NCBI GenBank assembly: GCA_902776195.1
Contig: CACYPF010000005.1
Coordinates: 1-64,000 of the forward strand
Direction: 5' to 3'
Length of the DNA stretch: 64,000 nucleotides
DNA from: an uncultured Prevotellaceae bacterium
GTDB taxonomy: Bacteria; Bacteroidota; Bacteroidia; Bacteroidales; Bacteroidaceae
Shown: positions 7,316 through 37,209 of the stretch, piece by piece
Position numbering within the stretch: position 1 is the stretch's first letter
Layout of the letters: each line of letters opens with the position of its first letter
Position numbers and translations under genes: made by a program
The notes under the pieces: model-generated
Told to the model about the DNA's origin: nothing
The model's database searches: none
What the model saw: the letters and a program-made list of their open reading frames with translations, nothing else

Positions 7316-7389
7316 CGGTGCGTACGAGACTCGAACTCGTGACCTCCTGCGTGACAGGCAGGCATTCTAACCAACTGAACTAACGCACC
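7316..7389 (-). tRNA. tRNA-Asp (GTC)
   Basis: The minus strand folds as a standard cloverleaf. Its acceptor is GGTGCGT/ACGCACC with discriminator G. The D arm is AGTTCAGTTGGTTAGA, and the anticodon stem CCTGC/GCAGG encloses loop CTGTCAC, which gives anticodon GTC. The T arm contains GTTCGAGTC. CCA is not encoded. A perfect promoter lies 20 nt upstream and an intrinsic terminator downstream, so it is a single-gene transcription unit. Confidence 0.95.
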
Positions 7390-11688: not shown

Positions 11689-12291
11689 TCAATCCTTCAA
11701 TTCTCGATTGATCTGCTCGATATAGTCAAGTACCTCCTCACGACCCTGTTTCTTCTCTGCCGATGTGAGGAAGACAGGGGGCAGCTCCTCCCACGTCTCC
11801 AGAAGTTTCTTCTGATAAGCCTCCACACTCTGGTTCGCTTTATTCGCCGTCAACTTATCTGCCTTGGTGAAGACGATGGCAAAGGGAACACCCGACTGCC
11901 CGAGCCAGTCGATAAACTCCAAGTCGATCTGCTGGGGCTCCAGACGGATATCCACCAGTACGAAGACATTTACCAGCTGCTCCCGCTGCAGGATATAGCC
12001 GCGGATCATCTGATCAAGCCTTGCCACCTCCTTTTTCGAACGCTTGGCATAGCCATAACCAGGGAGATCGACCAGGTACCACTCCTTGTTAATGATAAAG
12101 TGGTTGATCAACAACGTCTTACCCGGTGTTGCCGAGGTCTTGGCAAGTTTCTTGTTATTCGTCAGCATGTTGATCAGACTCGACTTGCCCACATTGGAAC
12201 GACCAATAAAGGCATATTCTGGCTTCGTGTCTTTGGGACACATACTCACCATGGGGGCACTCAGGGAGAATTCTGCTGTCTTGATGTTCAT
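11689..12291 (-). CDS. engB: Ribosome biogenesis GTPase EngB (YihA/YsxC)
   Basis: This 200-residue protein has one TRAFAC GTPase domain: G1 [11 protein letters not shown]2 TPGKTLL, G3 [12 protein letters not shown] (EngB-specific), G4 TKADKL and G5 TSAEK. EngB is needed for late assembly of the 50S subunit. It is the first gene of an operon with the ABC-F gene 9 nt downstream. A perfect promoter (12345-12314) precedes it, and the transcript would start about 15 nt before the ATG. This promoter is nearly identical to the divergent pyrB promoter 590 bp away. Confidence 0.96.
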
Positions 12292-12405: not shown

Positions 12406-12829
12406 CTACATGTATTTTTTTACCCTTGCAACCGTTGCCGCCTTGCAAAAGTATTTGGAAAACAAGTCGTTACGGTAACAATGAGGTGACAAGGGTGACA
12501 ACGAATGGCGTTTTTGCCCTTAAAATGCGTGTAAAAACGAGTGAAGTCCTCCATGGGAAGCCTTAGGCTTCGGGGGGCAGGAGCCTTAGGCAACAAGGGG
12601 CGAAGCTTTAGGCAACAAGGGGCGAAGCTTTAGGCAACGAGGGTCGAAGGTACGGGCTTCAAAGGATGAAGCTATGGGTTTCGTCAATGAAAACTATATC
12701 ATGTAGAATTGCAATCTACCTTAGTTTACACTGCAAATCAATTTGATTTACTTTGTAATTCAATTTGATTTACTCGGTAATTCAATTTGATTTACTTTGC
12801 AAATCAATTTGATTTACAATGAAAAGAGA
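12406..12829 (+). repeat. Copy A of a two-part intergenic element with a 22-bp register
   Basis: This non-coding element of 424 bp has a second copy at 33333-33733 in the opposite orientation. Part 1 (12406-12556, 151 bp) is a conserved unique segment with CCCTTGCAACCGTTGCC, GGTGACAAGGGTGACAACG and GAGTGAAGTCCTCC. Part 2 (12557-12821) is twelve units of 22 bp (one of 23). Six GC-rich units are based on GAAGCCT-T-AGGCTTC, two are transition units, and four AT-rich units (starting 12734, 12756, 12778, 12800) are based on AAATCAA-T-TTGATTT. Both unit types are palindromes with 7-bp arms around a single T. There is no reading frame of useful length and no transposase. Function is unknown; it fills most of the engB-pyrB gap. 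Confidence 0.85.
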
Positions 12830-12903: not shown

Positions 12904-12935
12904 TTTGGCATTTTGACCGCTTATTTGTACCTTTG
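12904..12935 (+). promoter_or_regulatory. Promoter of pyrBI
   Basis: TTTG (12904-12907), a 20-nt spacer and TACCTTTG (12928-12935) match the Bacteroidota consensus exactly. It places the transcript start near 12942, which rules out the upstream TTG at 12933 as start codon and supports ATG 12963. Confidence 0.88.
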
Positions 12936-12962
12936 CAGGAAAAACCTATAGGAACACAATAT

Positions 12963-13910
12963 ATGGAAAAGCATGACTTTGTAACCATTGCCGACCTCAC
13001 ACGTGAGAAGATACTCTACATGATTGAGATGGCACAAGAGTTTGAGAAACATCCTAACCGTGAGATACTCAAGGGTAAGGTGGTCGCCACCCTCTTCTTT
13101 GAGCCCTCCACCCGTACCCGTCTGAGTTTCGAGACTGCCGCCAACCGCCTCGGTGCCCGTGTGATCGGTTTCGCCGACCCGAAGATTACAAGCGGTACGA
13201 AGGGAGAGACGCTGAAAGACACCATCTCAATGGTTGCCAACTATGCCGATGTCATCGTCATGCGCCACTTCATCGAGGGTGCCGCACAGTATGCCTCTGA
13301 GGTGACCGAAGTACCTATCGTCAACGCAGGCGACGGTGCTCACCAGCATCCCTCACAGTGTATGCTCGACCTCTATAGCATCTATAAGACACAAGGGACA
13401 CTGGACAACCTCAACATCTACCTGGTTGGTGACCTGAAATACGGTCGTACCGTGCATTCGCTGATCATGGCGATGCGCCATTTCAACCCCACCTTCCATT
13501 TCGTGGCTCCTAAGGAGCTCGCCATGCCTAACGAGTATAAGCTCTACTGTAAGGAGCACGGCATCAAGTTCCAGGAGCATACCGCCTTCAACGAGAAGGT
13601 CATCGCCGATGCCGACATCCTGTATATGACGAGGGTACAGAAGGAGCGTTTCTCCGACCTGATGGAGTATGAGCGGGTGAAGAACGTGTATATCCTTAAC
13701 AACGACATGCTGCGTCTTGCCAAGCCTAACATGAAGATCCTGCACCCGCTGCCCCGTGTCAACGAGATTGCGTATGACGTGGATGACAATCCGCATGCCT
13801 ACTACATCCAACAGGCAGGCAACGGTCTCTTTGCCCGTGAGGCAATCTTCTGTGACGTACTCGGTATCAGCTTAGACGAAGTAAAGAACGATAAAACAAT
13901 TATACAATGA
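12963..13910 (+). CDS. pyrB: Aspartate carbamoyltransferase catalytic subunit
   Basis: From ATG 12963 this gives 315 residues. An upstream TTG (12933) lies inside the promoter and is rejected. It contains the carbamoyl-phosphate loop [13 protein letters not shown], the HPSQ-type aspartate loop [27 protein letters not shown] and the C-terminal HPLPRVNEI, all diagnostic of the class B catalytic chain. It condenses carbamoyl phosphate with aspartate, the first committed step of pyrimidine synthesis. It overlaps pyrI by 4 nt (ATGA). carB lies 15 kb away, so pyrimidine genes are dispersed here. Confidence 0.98.
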
Positions 13911-23647: not shown

Positions 23648-23690
23648 ATTAAATTCTCAACCCTCAACTCTAAACTCTCAACTCTCAAAG
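23648..23690 (-). repeat. Short tandem repeat spacer (7-bp units)
   Basis: Degenerate head-to-tail units related to TTGAGAG/TTGAGGG/TTTAGAG run between the stop of the GH9-M3 gene and the start of ettA. Similar low-complexity spacers occur at 32657 and 45961. Confidence 0.6.
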
Positions 23691-32300: not shown

Positions 32301-32660
32301 TTGCTGGAGCCTGCCCGTGAACTCGTGAAGAAGGGTTATAAGGTATATGCCACTGCTGGTACTGCCAAGTTCTTCAATGAGAACGGTGTCGAGGCAACTA
32401 CTGTCTGCTGGCCTGATGAGGATGGAGAGAACAATGTGATGGACATGATAGCCAACCACCAGTTCGACCTCATCGTCAATGTGCCGAAGAACCACACCAA
32501 GCGTGAGTTGACCAATGGTTACCGCATCCGCCGTGGTGCTATCGACCATAATATTCCTCTGATGACGAATGTCCGTCTTGCCAAAGCTTTCATCGAGGCG
32601 TTTACCGCTCTGAAGGAAGAGGACATCAAGATCAAGTCATGGCAGGAGTATAATTCATAG
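29400..32660 (+). CDS. carB: Carbamoyl-phosphate synthase large subunit
   Basis: At 1086 residues it is full length. Two homologous ATP-grasp halves each begin VLVLGSGALKIGQAGEFDYS and VIVLGSGAYRIGSSVEFDW. They are followed by an allosteric MGS-like domain (residues ~950-1086, KVSLLEPARELVKKGYKVYA). It makes carbamoyl phosphate from bicarbonate, ammonia and two ATP, using ammonia tunnelled from CarA, for pyrimidine and arginine synthesis. carA is not adjacent. Codon use is that of a strongly expressed gene. Confidence 0.98.
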   Translation: MKKQLKKVLVLGSGALKIGQAGEFDYSGSQALKALREEGISSVLVNPNIATIQTSEGIADKVYFQPVTTHFVTEIIKKERPDGILLAFGGQTALNCGTELYQSGVLKEYGVEVLGTSVEAIMNTEDRDLFVKKLAEVNLKVPVSHAVENMDDALKAAREIGFPIMIRSAYALGGLGSGICPDEKAFVELAESAFTFAPQILVEESLKGWKEIEFECIRDANDRCFTVASMENFDPLGIHTGESIVVAPTCSLSEEQVKMLQEITIKCVKHLGIVGECNIQFAFNANTNDYRIIEINARLSRSSALASKATGYPLAFVAAKIALGYTLDQIGEMGTTSSAYVAPSLDYMICKIPRWDLTKFAGVSRHIGSSMKSVGEIMSIGRSFEEMIQKGLRMIGQGMHGFVGNDHTKFDNLEDALANPTDLRIFAIAQALEEGYTIDHIEELTKIDKWFLERLKHIVDLKHQLMEYNQLEDLPTSLLLEVKQCGFSDFQIARFVLKPQTGNMEKENLQVRQYRKSKGIMPSVKRIPTVASEHPELTNYLYFTYTHTPAFATPDGKPYATKHDISYYKNEKSVIVLGSGAYRIGSSVEFDWCSVNAINTARKLGYKSIMINYNPETVSTDYDMCDRLYFDELSLERVLDVIDLEEPRGVIVSVGGQIPNNLAMKLYRQGVPVLGTSPVNIDRAENRDKFSAMLDKLGIDQPAWRALTSFDDIKEFVEEVGYPVLVRPSYVLSGAAMNVCYDDEELHRFLSMATEVSKEFPVVVSKFMTDTKEIEFDAVADKGEVVEYAISEHVEYAGVHSGDATMVFPAQHIYFSTIRQIKKISRKIAKELNISGPFNIQFLAKNREVKVIECNLRASRSFPFVSKILKRNFIETATKIMLDAPYQIPEKSEFDIDRIGVKASQFSFARLQNADPVLGVDMSSTGEVGCLGDDLNEAMLNALIATGYRLPKSSVLISSGAAKGKVSLLEPARELVKKGYKVYATAGTAKFFNENGVEATTVCWPDEDGENNVMDMIANHQFDLIVNVPKNHTKRELTNGYRIRRGAIDHNIPLMTNVRLAKAFIEAFTALKEEDIKIKSWQEYNS

Positions 32661-32687
32661 TTTATAGTTCATAGTTTATAGTTCATT
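32657..32687 (+). repeat. 14-bp tandem repeat in the carB downstream spacer
   Basis: CATAGTTTATAGTT occurs twice head to tail and is followed by CAT. It fills the whole gap between the carB stop and the next start codon. Confidence 0.6.
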
Positions 32688-33312
32688 GAGAATTATCTAT
32701 AAATTTTCAGTATTGATTCTCCTGTGCTTGTTGTTCCCCATGGGACTGCAGGCACAGGAGTCTCCTAATGCCCGTCAGGCACGCAGAATGTTTGACCAGG
32801 CGTATAATATGGTATTTGGTCCAGAGGGTTCCCAACTGCATTATGCCGTCAATATCATTGGCATCTACAAGACGGAGGGCACTATCTGGAATAAGGGTAA
32901 GAAGAGTAAGTTCACGGATGAGAAGTATATAGCATGGAATGATGATGTCACTTATTATCGTTTAGAGCGTAAGAAGAAGACTGTCACCATCTATGATGCC
33001 CATTCCGAGAAACGTGACAAATATGCCACTAAGTTTAAGTTTATACCTGACAACTACAATTACAGTATTAAGAACGACCCGGAGAAGGGTTATTATATCA
33101 CGCTGAAGGCAAAGAAGGGTGTGAAAGGTATCAAGGAGGCTCGTGTCCTGCTCGACCACCATACGCACCACCCTATCAATGTCCGTGTGAAAGTGGGCAT
33201 CTTCCATACCACCATCAAGATCACGAACTTCAAAGTGGGCGGCATCCCTGACGACCTGTTTACTTTCCCCCATTCCCAGTATAAGGACTATAAGTTCGTT
33301 GATAAAAGGTAA
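32686..33312 (+). CDS. LolA-like periplasmic protein
   Basis: This 208-residue protein has a signal peptide (FSVLILLCLLFPMGLQAQ). The mature part is β-rich, and its end FKVGGIPDDLFTFP is typical of LolA/LolB-fold proteins (outer-membrane lipoprotein carrier type). In Bacteroidota many such paralogues exist and their cargo is unclear. The only plausible start is TTG 32686, inside a 14-bp tandem repeat. There is no ribosome-binding sequence, so the true ATG may have been lost with that repeat. The gene follows carB by 25 nt. Confidence 0.7.
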   Translation: MRIIYKFSVLILLCLLFPMGLQAQESPNARQARRMFDQAYNMVFGPEGSQLHYAVNIIGIYKTEGTIWNKGKKSKFTDEKYIAWNDDVTYYRLERKKKTVTIYDAHSEKRDKYATKFKFIPDNYNYSIKNDPEKGYYITLKAKKGVKGIKEARVLLDHHTHHPINVRVKVGIFHTTIKITNFKVGGIPDDLFTFPHSQYKDYKFVDKR

Positions 33313-33332: not shown

Positions 33333-33733
33333 TCTCCTTTCATTGTAAATCAAATTGATTTGCAAAGTAAATCAAATTGAATTACCGAGTAAATCAAATT
33401 GATTTACTGAGTAATTTAAATTGAATTGCAAAGTAAACCAAGTTAGATTGCAATTCAGTATGATAGAGTTTTCATTGACGATGCCTAAGGCTTCAATCTT
33501 TGAAGCCCGTACCTTCGCCCTATGGAGCCTAAGGCTTCGACCTTCGCAGCTTAGGGCTTCGTCCCCCGAAGCCTAAGGCTTCACAAGGAGGACTTCACTC
33601 GTTTTTATACGTATTTTATGGGCAAAAACGCCATTCGTTGTCACCCTTGTCACCTCGTTGTTACCGTAATCGACTGATTCTCAAGTAGTGTTGCAAGGTG
33701 GCAACGGTTGCAAGGGTAAAAAACTTTATGTAG
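33333..33733 (-). repeat. Copy B of the 22-bp-register intergenic element
   Basis: This copy of 401 bp is in the opposite orientation to copy A (12406-12829). The array part 33341-33582 is exactly 11 x 22 bp: four AT-rich palindromic units (starting 33341, 33363, 33385, 33407), two transition units and five GC-rich units ending GAAGCCTAAGGCTTC at 33582. The unique part 33583-33733 is 151 bp, the same length as in copy A, and matches it with few substitutions, mostly transitions. Copy A is longer by exactly one 23-bp unit. It has no reading frame. It occupies most of the 600-bp gap between the LolA-like gene and the lipoprotein gene. Confidence 0.85.
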
Positions 33734-33748
33734 CGCGCGTGCGCGCGA
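33732..33748. repeat. Alternating GC palindrome at the edge of copy B
   Basis: GCGCGCGTGCGCGCG is a self-complementary, strictly alternating purine-pyrimidine run, the type that readily adopts Z-DNA. It starts where homology to copy A ends. Nothing comparable is seen in the rest of the window. Confidence 0.6.
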
Positions 33749-33772
33749 GGAATACTGATACCCCTATCAAAC

Positions 33773-33810
33773 AATACGACCGGCAGATTTTCCATTCCGC
33801 CAGTCGTATT
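33773..33810. other. Imperfect 12-bp hairpin, intergenic
   Basis: AATACGACCGGC pairs with GCCAGTCGTATT across a 14-nt loop. No T run follows on either side, so it is not a convincing intrinsic terminator. Nothing else recognisable is seen between here and 33915. Confidence 0.45.
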
Positions 33811-33915
33811 GAACTGTAGTAATCGTATTTGACTAGAAACGGATCATTCAGTCATCGACGAAGTCGCTTGCAAGAGCAAGAGTCCCAAACTTTCCGTCAC
33901 AGCCTCAACAACTGA

Positions 33916-34317
33916 CTATTTTCTAGTCCATGTTGTACCACCTGCTTCATCAGTAGTCATCTTATTCCCACTTATTGTATAATTCCTTGGCTTTGAAGAG
34001 AATTTCTTCCATGTCGTATAAAGAACTCCATTATCGGTATAATACGTTCCACTATCCGAATTATTAAGAGTCAGATTTCCACTATTGTCCTTGAGATACT
34101 CTCTCCACGTGAAGGTCATATCCTTTTCGAAGGTCATCTCTGTGTAAATCAATTCACCTTTTGATGTTTCTTTCTCAACATACCAAGTACCAACAATAGG
34201 ATTTGGCGATGAATTATTATTATCGTCATCATCACCGCCACATGCCAACAAGGCAAAACCACTCAAGAACAAGCCTACCATGAGACTCAACATTGTAAAA
34301 ATCTTCTTTGTCTTCAT
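33916..34317 (-). CDS. Lipocalin-like surface lipoprotein
   Basis: Start chosen at ATG 34317 (MKTKKIFTML), which gives a proper lipoprotein signal peptide; two upstream in-frame ATGs precede it without one. The lipobox LLAC is followed by GGDDDDNN, an acidic stretch of the kind that directs lipoproteins to the cell surface in Bacteroidota. The domain opens with PIVGTWYVEKETSKG and continues as short β-strands ending GTTWTRK, matching lipocalin-like DUF4923/5004-type domains. Ligand unknown. A similar protein is encoded inside the mobile element at 39982. Confidence 0.78.
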   Translation of the reverse strand: MKTKKIFTMLSLMVGLFLSGFALLACGGDDDDNNNSSPNPIVGTWYVEKETSKGELIYTEMTFEKDMTFTWREYLKDNSGNLTLNNSDSGTYYTDNGVLYTTWKKFSSKPRNYTISGNKMTTDEAGGTTWTRK

Positions 34318-34368
34318 AAACATTTTATTAAAAGTTAATAATATTGGATTACTCATTTCATCATATCC

Positions 34369-37209
34369 TTACTTCACAATCACCTTGACGCTCCTATTGC
34401 CAATCTTCACAACCGCAATGGAACCAGCCTTTAGGTTTGTGTTGATAACAGCACGACCATTCTGACTAATAACAGAACCAATCTGTGTGCCATTGATGGC
34501 ATAAGCACTGACCTGCATACCATCATCGGCACCCTGAACACTCAGCACACCGCCCACACTCTGTATCATCACAGCGTTGGCAGGCACGTTGGCTATGCCG
34601 TCGATGATGCCCTCCGTCTTAGGCTCCTGGTCTATCCAGCACAGTGTGGCAGTGACAGTCTCCGAGTTCTCATAGCCAGCCTTTGCCGCATAGACGCTGA
34701 TGTTATAGGTCACGCCCAACTGCACCTCATTGGTGGTATAGGTTCCCATATCCTCGTCTGTGATGCTCGACACACAAGTAGCCCCTTCCGTCTCGCTGCT
34801 GAACGTCAGTTTTCCATTCTGATAGCTGATGGAAGGCTTCTCGCATTTCTTCGTTTCTGGAGTCACAGGCTCGACATCCTCCTGAATATAGAAGAAATCT
34901 TTCCAAGGTGCTGTGGATTGATAAGCAGTCAGGCTGCCATAAGGGATTGTCAATGCACAGTTCCACTTGTTGATATTATCCAGGGCTTGAGTGCCACAAG
35001 TGGGTGGAACTGTACCCCGACTGATTATCTTTACAACAGATTTACAGTCATAGAAAGCCTCACGACCAATACTGTTTAGGTTTGATCCAAGTGTCACCGA
35101 CTCAAGAGCCGTACATCCGTAGAAAGACTTGTCAGCCACACTCGTCACCTCATCACCAATCACCAATTCCTTCAAGCCCGTACTTCCATAAAAAGCAGAC
35201 TCGCCAATTGTTCCCGTGTTGGCAACAGTAGCTTTGAAGTTGCCTGTAATCCCGCTAAAGGCTGATTTGTCGATAAAACCTTTGTTGCATACAGCCAGGG
35301 TGTCCTGAATGTTTGCATCCTTAAATGCAGACTCCGAGATTTTACCCTGATTTGCGATAATGGCTCTTACCAGGCCTGTACACCCTTGGAATGCTGATAT
35401 GCCGATACTTCCATTGTTCTTTATCGACAGATCCTTGATGTTCGTACACTCATAGAAAGCATAGTTACCTATACTACCGTCAAATGACAAATCAAGGTTC
35501 TTTAGAAATAAGTTACGATAGAACGTATAAGGCTTCACTTCTTTCACTGACAATTTTACGTTCTGAAACAGAACTCCGTCTCCTATCTTTATGCTTTCAG
35601 CTTCATCACCATAAATACAGTCTATGGCTTCACATGTACGCTCTGAAGGGCTAACGGGAACATACTTCACACCGTCAACTATAAAGCAGGAACTCAAATA
35701 CGGATAAATGGTCTTAATGTCTGACTTAATAGATGTGTATTGGTCGTTAGACACATAGTTATACGTGCCTATTGCATTGGCATATCCATTCGGAGGTGTG
35801 TTGGTAAGCCAAATGGTTTTCACTGGTTTGTCATTTGCAAAAGCACTACTTCCAATAGACGTTACACCAGTTCCTATAGTCAAAGAACTCAGTGAAGTAC
35901 CTGCAAACGCAGAAGCACCAATACTTGTGACGCTGTTGGGAATCTGTATTACTGTCAGTCCACCACATTTGTTGAATGCCTTTTCTTTGATGGTTTCTAC
36001 TTTTTCTCCAATCTTTACAGATAACAAACCTGTACATCCGTCAAAAGCAGAAGTTCCGATCTCTGTTACCTTGTCGTGAATAGTTAATGCTTTTAATGCA
36101 CTCCATCCATTAAAGGCGTAATTGTTGATGGTAGTAATAGATTCTGGAATGGTCAACTCTGTGATTTCCGTACTCTCATCACTGAACAAATGTCCCGCAA
36201 TTTTTAAAGGATTTGATGTGTCATTACCAAACCCAATTTTGCACCATGCCTCTAAGTCCTTGACTACGACCTGCTGAAGTTTAGTGCACTCAGAAAATGC
36301 AGAATTCCCGACACTTTTGACGCTATACGGTATCAAGATAGACGATAATGCAGTTCCTGAAAATGCAGAGTTGCCAATAGAGGTTATATTATTTGACATA
36401 GTCACAGATTCCAAACCACTACAGCCACTAAATGCGGAACTCCCAATAGTTGTCACTTCTTCACCAAATATAACATCCTTAATGGATTTTAATCCACTAA
36501 ACCAACTGCCTGCTTCTTTACAATGCAAAGTCACACTTGTCAAGCCACTACATCCTTCGAACGCAGAAGAGCCAATGCTCGTCACACTGTTGGGGATGGT
36601 CACAGAGGTCAGGCCACTACAGTCTTTGAACGCAGAATAACGAATACTTGTTACTTCATCTCCAAATATAACATCCTTAATGGATTTTAATCCACTAAAC
36701 CAACTGCCAACTTCTTTACAGTGCAAAGTCACACTCGTCAAGCCACTACAGCCATTGAACGCATTATTCTCGATGCTCGTAACAGAGTTCGGGATGATTA
36801 GACTCGTCAAACTATTACAGTTTCGGAATGCATATTGGTCAATACTCATCACGGAATTGCCAATAATCACACTCGTCAAGCCATTACATTCATTGAATGC
36901 AGACCAACCGATGCTTGTCACAGAATTTGGTATGGATACACTAGTCAAGTCATCTGCTTCGAATGCATTTGCACCAATGCTCGTCACAGAATAATCTTTT
37001 CCATTGTACGTTACGGTAGCAGGGATAACAACATTACCTGAATATACATAATCTCCAGAAGCTACGGATAATTCCGTTTTGTTGTTAGTCCATTTGTAAT
37101 AGATTTTCTTACCATCAGCATTCTCTACCGCAATGTCATAGGCAAAAGCCTTTGCTCCAACCATACTCATGAGCATGGTGAGGAGAAATGTAAGTTTAAA
37201 TTGTTTCAT
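34369..37209 (-). CDS. BspA-like leucine-rich repeat surface protein with T9SS-type C-terminus
   Basis: This 946-residue protein has a signal peptide (FLLTMLMSMVGAKAFA). Residues ~50-770 are about 25 LRR_5 units of 22-24 residues of the form IPNSVTSIGxxAFxxCxxLTSV. A spacer with YQNGKLTFSSETEGATC follows. The C-terminal ~80 residues (VYxINGxxIG-like QVSAYAINGTQIGSV, then GSIAVVKIGNRSVKV) match a type IX secretion sorting domain. BspA proteins bind host or bacterial surface proteins such as fibronectin. Two LRR blocks (DNA near 36480 and 36679) are almost identical, indicating recent internal duplication. Confidence 0.92.
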   Translation of the reverse strand: MKQFKLTFLLTMLMSMVGAKAFAYDIAVENADGKKIYYKWTNNKTELSVASGDYVYSGNVVIPATVTYNGKDYSVTSIGANAFEADDLTSVSIPNSVTSIGWSAFNECNGLTSVIIGNSVMSIDQYAFRNCNSLTSLIIPNSVTSIENNAFNGCSGLTSVTLHCKEVGSWFSGLKSIKDVIFGDEVTSIRYSAFKDCSGLTSVTIPNSVTSIGSSAFEGCSGLTSVTLHCKEAGSWFSGLKSIKDVIFGEEVTTIGSSAFSGCSGLESVTMSNNITSIGNSAFSGTALSSILIPYSVKSVGNSAFSECTKLQQVVVKDLEAWCKIGFGNDTSNPLKIAGHLFSDESTEITELTIPESITTINNYAFNGWSALKALTIHDKVTEIGTSAFDGCTGLLSVKIGEKVETIKEKAFNKCGGLTVIQIPNSVTSIGASAFAGTSLSSLTIGTGVTSIGSSAFANDKPVKTIWLTNTPPNGYANAIGTYNYVSNDQYTSIKSDIKTIYPYLSSCFIVDGVKYVPVSPSERTCEAIDCIYGDEAESIKIGDGVLFQNVKLSVKEVKPYTFYRNLFLKNLDLSFDGSIGNYAFYECTNIKDLSIKNNGSIGISAFQGCTGLVRAIIANQGKISESAFKDANIQDTLAVCNKGFIDKSAFSGITGNFKATVANTGTIGESAFYGSTGLKELVIGDEVTSVADKSFYGCTALESVTLGSNLNSIGREAFYDCKSVVKIISRGTVPPTCGTQALDNINKWNCALTIPYGSLTAYQSTAPWKDFFYIQEDVEPVTPETKKCEKPSISYQNGKLTFSSETEGATCVSSITDEDMGTYTTNEVQLGVTYNISVYAAKAGYENSETVTATLCWIDQEPKTEGIIDGIANVPANAVMIQSVGGVLSVQGADDGMQVSAYAINGTQIGSVISQNGRAVINTNLKAGSIAVVKIGNRSVKVIVK

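Follow-up and report, generated by a model that had tools for sequence, protein, structure and literature searches.

A modular intergenic element of Prevotella built on a 22-bp register that recurs in unrelated tandem arrays of the genus

Two copies of a modular element in the window

The window is the whole stretch of DNA analysed here, 64,000 nucleotides from an uncultured Prevotellaceae bacterium, and it contains two copies of a repeated element on opposite strands, copy A at 12406-12829 (+) and copy B at 33333-33733 (-). Copy A lies in a divergent intergenic region, flanked on one side by a GTPase gene (11689-12291, -; Pfam MMR_HSR1), which we take to be of the YsxC/EngB type, and on the other by a gene of the aspartate/ornithine carbamoyltransferase family, read as pyrB (12933-13910, +; Pfam OTCace_N and OTCace). 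Copy B occupies a convergent intergenic region between a gene without a Pfam match (32686-33312, +) and a lipocalin-like gene (33916-34356, -); a BspA-type leucine-rich repeat protein is encoded nearby, at 34369-37209. The coordinates, the opposite orientation and the non-coding character of the two copies are as the original prediction gave them, no open reading frame of at least 80 amino acids being present within either. An Rfam search of the window at gathering scores returned a single match, a tRNA at 7316-7389. A promoter and terminator scan of site A yielded three promoter-like sequences versus 1.7 in shuffles and one terminator-like sequence versus 0.4, figures of which no use is made below.

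Both copies begin with a head of 151 bp, at 12406-12556 (+) in copy A and at 33583-33733 (-) in copy B. The first ~110 bp of the copy A head form a long hairpin, ACCCTTGnnACC...GGTnnCAAGGGT. The two heads are identical at 130 of 151 bases, and the differences comprise 11 transitions and 10 transversions, so that the excess of transitions first proposed is not borne out for the heads. The head is followed by GC-type units built on GAAGCCT-T-AGGCTTC, six in copy A (12557-12689, +) and five in copy B (33473-33582, -). Two 22-bp transition steps come next (12690-12733, +, with related sequence in other copies; 33429-33472, -), and then four AT-type units on AAATCAA-T-TTGATTT (12734-12821, +; 33341-33428, -), an array that is also found elsewhere without a head. 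TRF detects the arrays of A and B independently. The order of GC-type, transition and AT-type units is the same in both copies, and the stepping in 22 bp proved correct, amounting to exactly 242 bp in copy B and being interrupted in copy A by a single 23-bp step from unit 1 to unit 2. The two palindromes do not, as had been supposed, keep quite the same phase: their dyads are 1 bp off the exact 22-bp register, and the last GC-type 15-mer precedes the first AT-type 15-mer of the AAATCAA type by 67 bp in copy A and by 89 bp in copy B, both of which equal 22n+1.

Copy B, but not copy A, has a 5' extension module (33734-33830, -), made up of a tract of alternating GCGC and of a hairpin whose arms are AATACGAC...GTCGTATT. 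When 33700-33830 was used as a query against its own genome, 21 of the 28 rows returned (itself included) entered the 5' module and the other seven covered the start of the head only. Alternating purine-pyrimidine GCGC tracts, possibly Z-DNA, form the left edge of many copies, including the one in the window at 33734-33750 but not copy A.

Dispersal, turnover and relatives in design

The original prediction described two copies. In the genome from which the window comes (2.97 Mb, 42 contigs), 56 rows match at E <= 0.001, and A and B belong to a set of at least 11 near-full copies; the count is approximate, because one palindromic AT array may match in either orientation and so fill more than one row, as happened in some cases, and because the scoring covered 40 of 59 first-look candidates. 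The head is present in all 11 near-full copies, while the tail motif GGAGGCATCC follows seven of them and its exact form occurs in neither A nor B. Several of these tails are succeeded by an inverted repeat around CTGATAGATTGACAGAT. Head-only and AT-array-only copies are present as well. One copy (L016) is accompanied by two short arrays in which TCTAGA returns every 10 bp, at 1074-1139 and 247-292 of its locus, the first lying beyond the tail.

Five of 60 genomes drawn from the genus, the window's own included, contain a match. One of them, G035, has composite copies with two rows near full length, another has AT-type arrays only, and two (G047, G027) match weakly. A 25-base head motif was scanned for exact matches over 84,980 genomes, a set that may lack the closest records to the window's genome. 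It occurs in 30 stretches, which belong to four Prevotella or Prevotellaceae metagenome-assembled genomes, namely RUG037 (18), UBA2755 (10), RUG11506 (1) and RUG12503 (1); the RUG genomes are of rumen origin. The element is therefore not confined to A and B, being a dispersed family in its own genome, in RUG037 and in UBA2755. At seven of the ten UBA2755 loci (L140, L148, L150, L154, L156, L160, L167) runs of N fall within the head near the hairpin, as if the hairpin had halted assembly or sequencing. An origin from a plasmid, phage or virus was rejected, since blastn gave no match among 72,556 records of plasmids and 50,697 of phages, and the exact head motif is absent from viral contigs. The element is a modular, non-coding intergenic mosaic of hairpin head, GC-type 22-mers, transition, AT-type 22-mers and variable tail, dispersed within a small group of Prevotella.

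The history of individual sites can be followed in G035, a sister species whose sequence is 98% identical in the pyrB block and 92% identical in the GTPase block. The element is present in both species, with a different interior, at site B (L079) and at five further locus pairs (L005/L086, L010/L084, L009/L087, L019/L083 and L008/L035); shared sites are over-represented in this comparison because, site B apart, the loci compared were fetched for containing a match. Among five sites of the window's genome tested through their flanks (A, B, L006, L011 and L017), B alone was shared. Site A is occupied in the sister species by other repeats. At L006 the syntenic junction of the sister species lacks a segment of ~1.5 kb (478-2001) that comprises a gene and the element; another contig of that species matches most of the gene portion. 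L011 coincides with an apparent synteny break, its downstream flank lying near the start of another contig, and the flanks of L017 match at no more than 75-79%, which makes their orthology doubtful. Neither a clean empty site nor a target duplication was found in the comparison at A, L006, L011 and L017. Twelve alignable pairs contain 28 gaps of at least 4 bp, among them one each of 21, 22, 42 and 44 bp. Both sister species therefore retain some sites, with a different interior in each; some copies, then, have existed long enough to be shared, and interiors change fast.

In design, though apparently not in sequence, the element resembles BrickBuilt, BOX and BIME. BrickBuilt is the closest, with PINSR, BOX, BIME/REP and the Neisserial intergenic mosaic elements (NIME) as further relatives in kind, and none agrees in every feature tested. 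BrickBuilt is a MITE of Porphyromonas gingivalis with 19 dispersed intergenic copies in one strain, each composed of a leader, a tandem array of a single 23-nt unit family and a tail, with IS5-family-like terminal inverted repeats, unit gain and loss between strains, and partial copies (PMC4596501). For P. gingivalis W83, repeats of 41, 23 and 22 nt are also mentioned there and ascribed to an earlier paper (PMC4596501). The features in common are dispersed intergenic copies, a leader, an array of units of nearly equal length, a tail, unit gain and loss and partial copies; a head in 11/11 and a GGAGGCATCC tail in 7/11 of the near-full copies correspond to leader and tail. The present element differs in its 22-bp units (TRF), in having at least two unrelated unit families per copy, in its head-only copies and in its hosts. 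Its ends differ too: in place of an IS5-type terminal inverted repeat (GAGACCTTTGCA), the left ends read by eye are CTACATAAAG, CTACATGTA, CTACACGTAA or the GCGC extension.

The BOX elements have a unit length other than 22 bp. Those of Streptococcus pneumoniae share with the present element a modular head, variable central tandem modules, a tail, stem-loop potential and dispersal, but they have terminal inverted repeats, target duplications and different sequences (PMC3049150). REP/BIME elements are likewise intergenic palindrome mosaics, for which binding of gyrase and IHF and maintenance of palindromes by complementary changes have been reported (PMC2817692). Unlike them, the element here consists of 22-bp direct repeats rather than alternating REPs, and the RAYT (Y1) transposase was not found: PF01797 has no match in the window's genome (93.55% complete), though it is present in 5 of 14 control genomes. 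PINSR of Prevotella intermedia and P. nigrescens is a Prevotella lineage-specific, non-coding intergenic repeat as well; it is a 188-bp sequence without terminal inverted repeats, present in 177-184 copies in other species (PMC4755523). NIME too are repeat and palindrome mosaics between genes and have been linked to rearrangements, but they consist of 20-bp dRS3 inverted repeats around 50-150-bp units, and the available extract of that account mentions no 22-bp register (PMC9778887). Two other candidates were set aside. In a CRISPR array the units would not stand head-to-tail without spacers as they do here, and plasmid iterons would adjoin a rep gene on a plasmid, but Pfam identifies no such gene among the four neighbours (for one it gives no match at all), and the plasmid records cited above hold no match.

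The 22-bp period across the genus

The period of intergenic tandem arrays was surveyed in 20-kb stretches, 77 of them (1,540 kb) from seven genomes of the genus and 23 (460 kb) from eight other genera of the family. Two controls were added, 24 stretches (480 kb) spread over six further families of the order and, from E. coli K-12, five 50-kb stretches (250 kb). Genes were masked by a simple rule (open reading frames of at least 80 amino acids, longest first), and genus and family are the kinship labels of the genome collection. In the seven genus genomes 52 of 129 intergenic arrays have a period of 22 bp, and the share is 39 of 56 when the count is limited to periods of 15-50 bp and to 2.3 or more copies. 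These belong to 21 unrelated families, as opposed to four or fewer at any other period; arrays of 21 bp also occur, in four families. Family counts are preferred because the arrays within one genome are not all independent, a dependence that binomial and Poisson figures ignore.

Period 22 extends to the other genera of the family, with 5 of 13 arrays in four of the eight genomes. It was found in none of 11 intergenic arrays from the six other families and in neither of the two from E. coli; both controls contain few arrays, and E. coli with its two is a weak one. Had the other families the genus rate, their first 20 stretches should have contained 9.8 arrays of 22 bp; none was observed. Self-match lags tell the same story: multiples of 11 account for the best lag in 47 of the 73 genus intergenic regions having one and in 6 of 8 in the other genera, versus 0 of 3 in the 24 stretches from other families, E. 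coli showing no self-match lag at all. Fragmentary assembly is not the cause of the peak, since G016, G024, G045 and G088 are single contigs.

In a set of arrays that takes in the window and the other genera too, the share of period 22 rises with copy number, from 15/44 below 2.3 copies to 31/45 at 2.3-3.5 and 15/19 above. Arrays of 22n bp are present in 49 genus regions, seven of which hold at least two arrays, in six cases with unrelated units; in four regions (L228, L232, L244, L246) unrelated arrays stand no more than 25 bp apart, a design as in A and B. Across the genus samples 22 bp is thus the commonest period of intergenic tandem arrays and is represented by many unrelated sequences. 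Nor do the arrays behave as variable satellite DNA without phase conservation, for relatives show the 22-bp period again with other sequences and other numbers of units, which marks the register as the durable feature. Borg tandem repeats offer a parallel, being many unrelated arrays that arise independently in one lineage; their lengths vary, however (18, 20 and 21 nt, for example), their units are perfect and they occur in open reading frames too (PMC9879509).

Dyads, placement and the origin of the register

Consensus units of 22 bp are dyadic above chance. For 57 units, drawn from the 61 period-22 arrays as those whose consensus has exactly 22 letters (the window and other genera included) and representing 29 families, the mean best-dyad score is 4.19, versus 3.34 (sd 0.14) in shuffled units; 11 units score at least 6, whereas the shuffles average 2.0 such units and never exceed 7. 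In many 22-bp families the dyads are weak. Within the GC-type family, units were collected by a GAAG/GGAG rule and 27 distinct, head-to-tail 15-mers were chosen, unrelated strings and reverse complements being excluded. In these, dyad pairing extends to 85.7% of cells (76.7% on average in shuffles) and 20 cells are changed on both sides (shuffled mean 7.6), values reached by none of 500 shuffles, although the rows are related and their choice may favour dyads. Sliding the partner position lowers the pairing. Two of the five covariation measures, double-change pairs and pair types, are not above the shuffles (reached in 274 and 430 of 500, respectively).

Strong dyads occupy 0.32-0.38% of positions in four genus samples and 0.32% in the other families, and they are not enriched at 22 bp from a dissimilar dyad in G000 (the window's genome), G016, G045, G024 or the six other families. 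A general rule of one 15-bp dyad per 22 bp, extending even between dissimilar units, is accordingly unsupported in these five samples. By type of region, 15 of the 111 convergent regions contain arrays, as do 25 of the 333 tandem and 4 of the 139 divergent ones; convergent and divergent frequencies differ at p = 0.003 and the two other contrasts have p = 0.06-0.08. Within tandem regions no end bias is seen, the mean relative position being 0.50.

The dyadic units, and a length equal to two helical turns, are compatible with the protein-binding array that was first suggested, putative as the binding itself is. The reading tentatively preferred here, held with a little less than even confidence, is that the arrays are helically phased dyad sites with two 11-bp turns per unit. 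Unit length would be set by the geometry of the DNA, as two turns of ~11 bp, a value suggested by the number 22 itself and by the companion periods 11, 33, 44 and 66. The genomic periodicity of eubacteria is 11 bp. Herzel in 1999 and Schieg and Herzel in 2004, both among the references of PMC3940949, reportedly treated genomic periodicities of 10-11 bp as a sign of supercoiling. Each imperfect dyad might then serve as a single site where a dimeric DNA-binding protein attaches, or as a single topology-sensitive fold, and successive sites would lie on the same side of the helix, within intergenic regions where promoters are few. Spread and turnover may proceed by recombination between dispersed modules together with unit gain and loss, rather than by an enzyme encoded in the element. 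Several of the observations count against phased dyads: the position of copy A in a divergent region, the 1-bp offset between GC- and AT-type dyads, strong dyads that are neither commoner in the genus samples nor enriched at 22 bp from a dissimilar dyad, the 21-bp arrays, the many families with weak dyads, the two covariation measures at shuffle level and the absence of end bias in tandem regions.

The main rival, nearly as likely although somewhat improbable taken by itself, is a mutational process of fixed length, wherein an enzyme or replication process of the lineage duplicates ~22 bp whatever the sequence, for example by filling in staggered nicks or by slippage in steps of fixed size, and the resulting arrays serve no function. 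We know of no candidate enzyme for such a 22-bp duplication. Many unrelated families (21) of one length are what this process would produce, arrays of fewer than 2.3 copies already peak at 22 (15/44), and the peak is missing in the six other families (0/11) and, within the limits of two arrays, in E. coli. But a blind process would predict neither the sharpening of the peak at higher copy number, nor units that are dyadic above chance, nor the scarcity of arrays in divergent regions, unless selection removes copies.

It is unlikely that the element is a MITE that has its ends within the head (and tail) and is mobilised in trans by the transposase of an insertion sequence, its 22-bp arrays being passengers or transposase-binding sites as in BrickBuilt. 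Copies are dispersed, intergenic and without an open reading frame of at least 80 amino acids, and that at L006 is missing from the syntenic junction of the sister species. The head-only copy L046 forms one long hairpin with clear terminal inverted repeats, CCTACATAAA...TTTATGTGG, and folds at -51.9 kcal/mol versus a shuffled mean of -25.6 (z -7.7). These properties give partial support to one suggestion of the original prediction, a non-autonomous mobile repeat; no clean empty site, target duplication or parent transposase was found, the Y1 family being the one searched for in the genome. In addition, left ends are variable (CCCTACA... or the GCGC extension), several sites are common to the sister species, and a MITE would leave the genus-wide 22-bp arrays of other sequence unexplained.

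A transcribed structured RNA with repeated hairpins, riboswitch-like or a small RNA, is very improbable. Copy A does fold better than its shuffles (z -4.0) and the head-only copy strongly so (z -7.7), but Rfam returned no match for the element, and among 29 aligned heads (of 47 distinct heads found) none of the 21 pairs of the consensus stem has a compensatory change, so that the hairpin may be an inherited form rather than a selected RNA. The structured RNA once proposed gains little from these results, and it is further opposed by wobble-type changes on both strands of the GC-type units and by the free variation of unit number and families. Ordinary satellite turnover without a length rule, with A and B as a local duplication, would account for the differing unit numbers but is scarcely credible, being contradicted by the dispersed copies and the genus-wide period peak.

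A length of exactly 22 bp, common to 21 unrelated families in the samples of one genus and seen in four of the eight other genera, points to a means of measuring DNA, be it a bound protein, a helix under torsion or an enzyme. The length of a tandem repeat is usually regarded as an accident of slippage. It is possible, if somewhat doubtful, that the Bacteroidaceae, above all Prevotella, possess a sequence-independent 22-bp ruler, under which unit length is kept and sequence turns over between genomes. Such a ruler, if real, would be a bacterial parallel to the eukaryotic satellites whose unit length is set by the nucleosome, and it would imply an unrecognised architectural protein, a torsional constraint or a length-measuring enzyme common to the family. 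In the literature searched, largely open-access texts, no description of the element or of a 22-bp rule in Prevotella was recognised.

Intergenic arrays of other periods were encountered in the same samples. A second class, with a period of 7 or 14 bp, is present in several genus genomes (L174, L177, L179, L201, L230) and in the window at 32649-32686 and 23655-23688. In G016 an array of 41-bp units (L198:15066-15261), a length on record for P. gingivalis repeats as well, runs to 4.8 copies, and its unit holds two palindromes.
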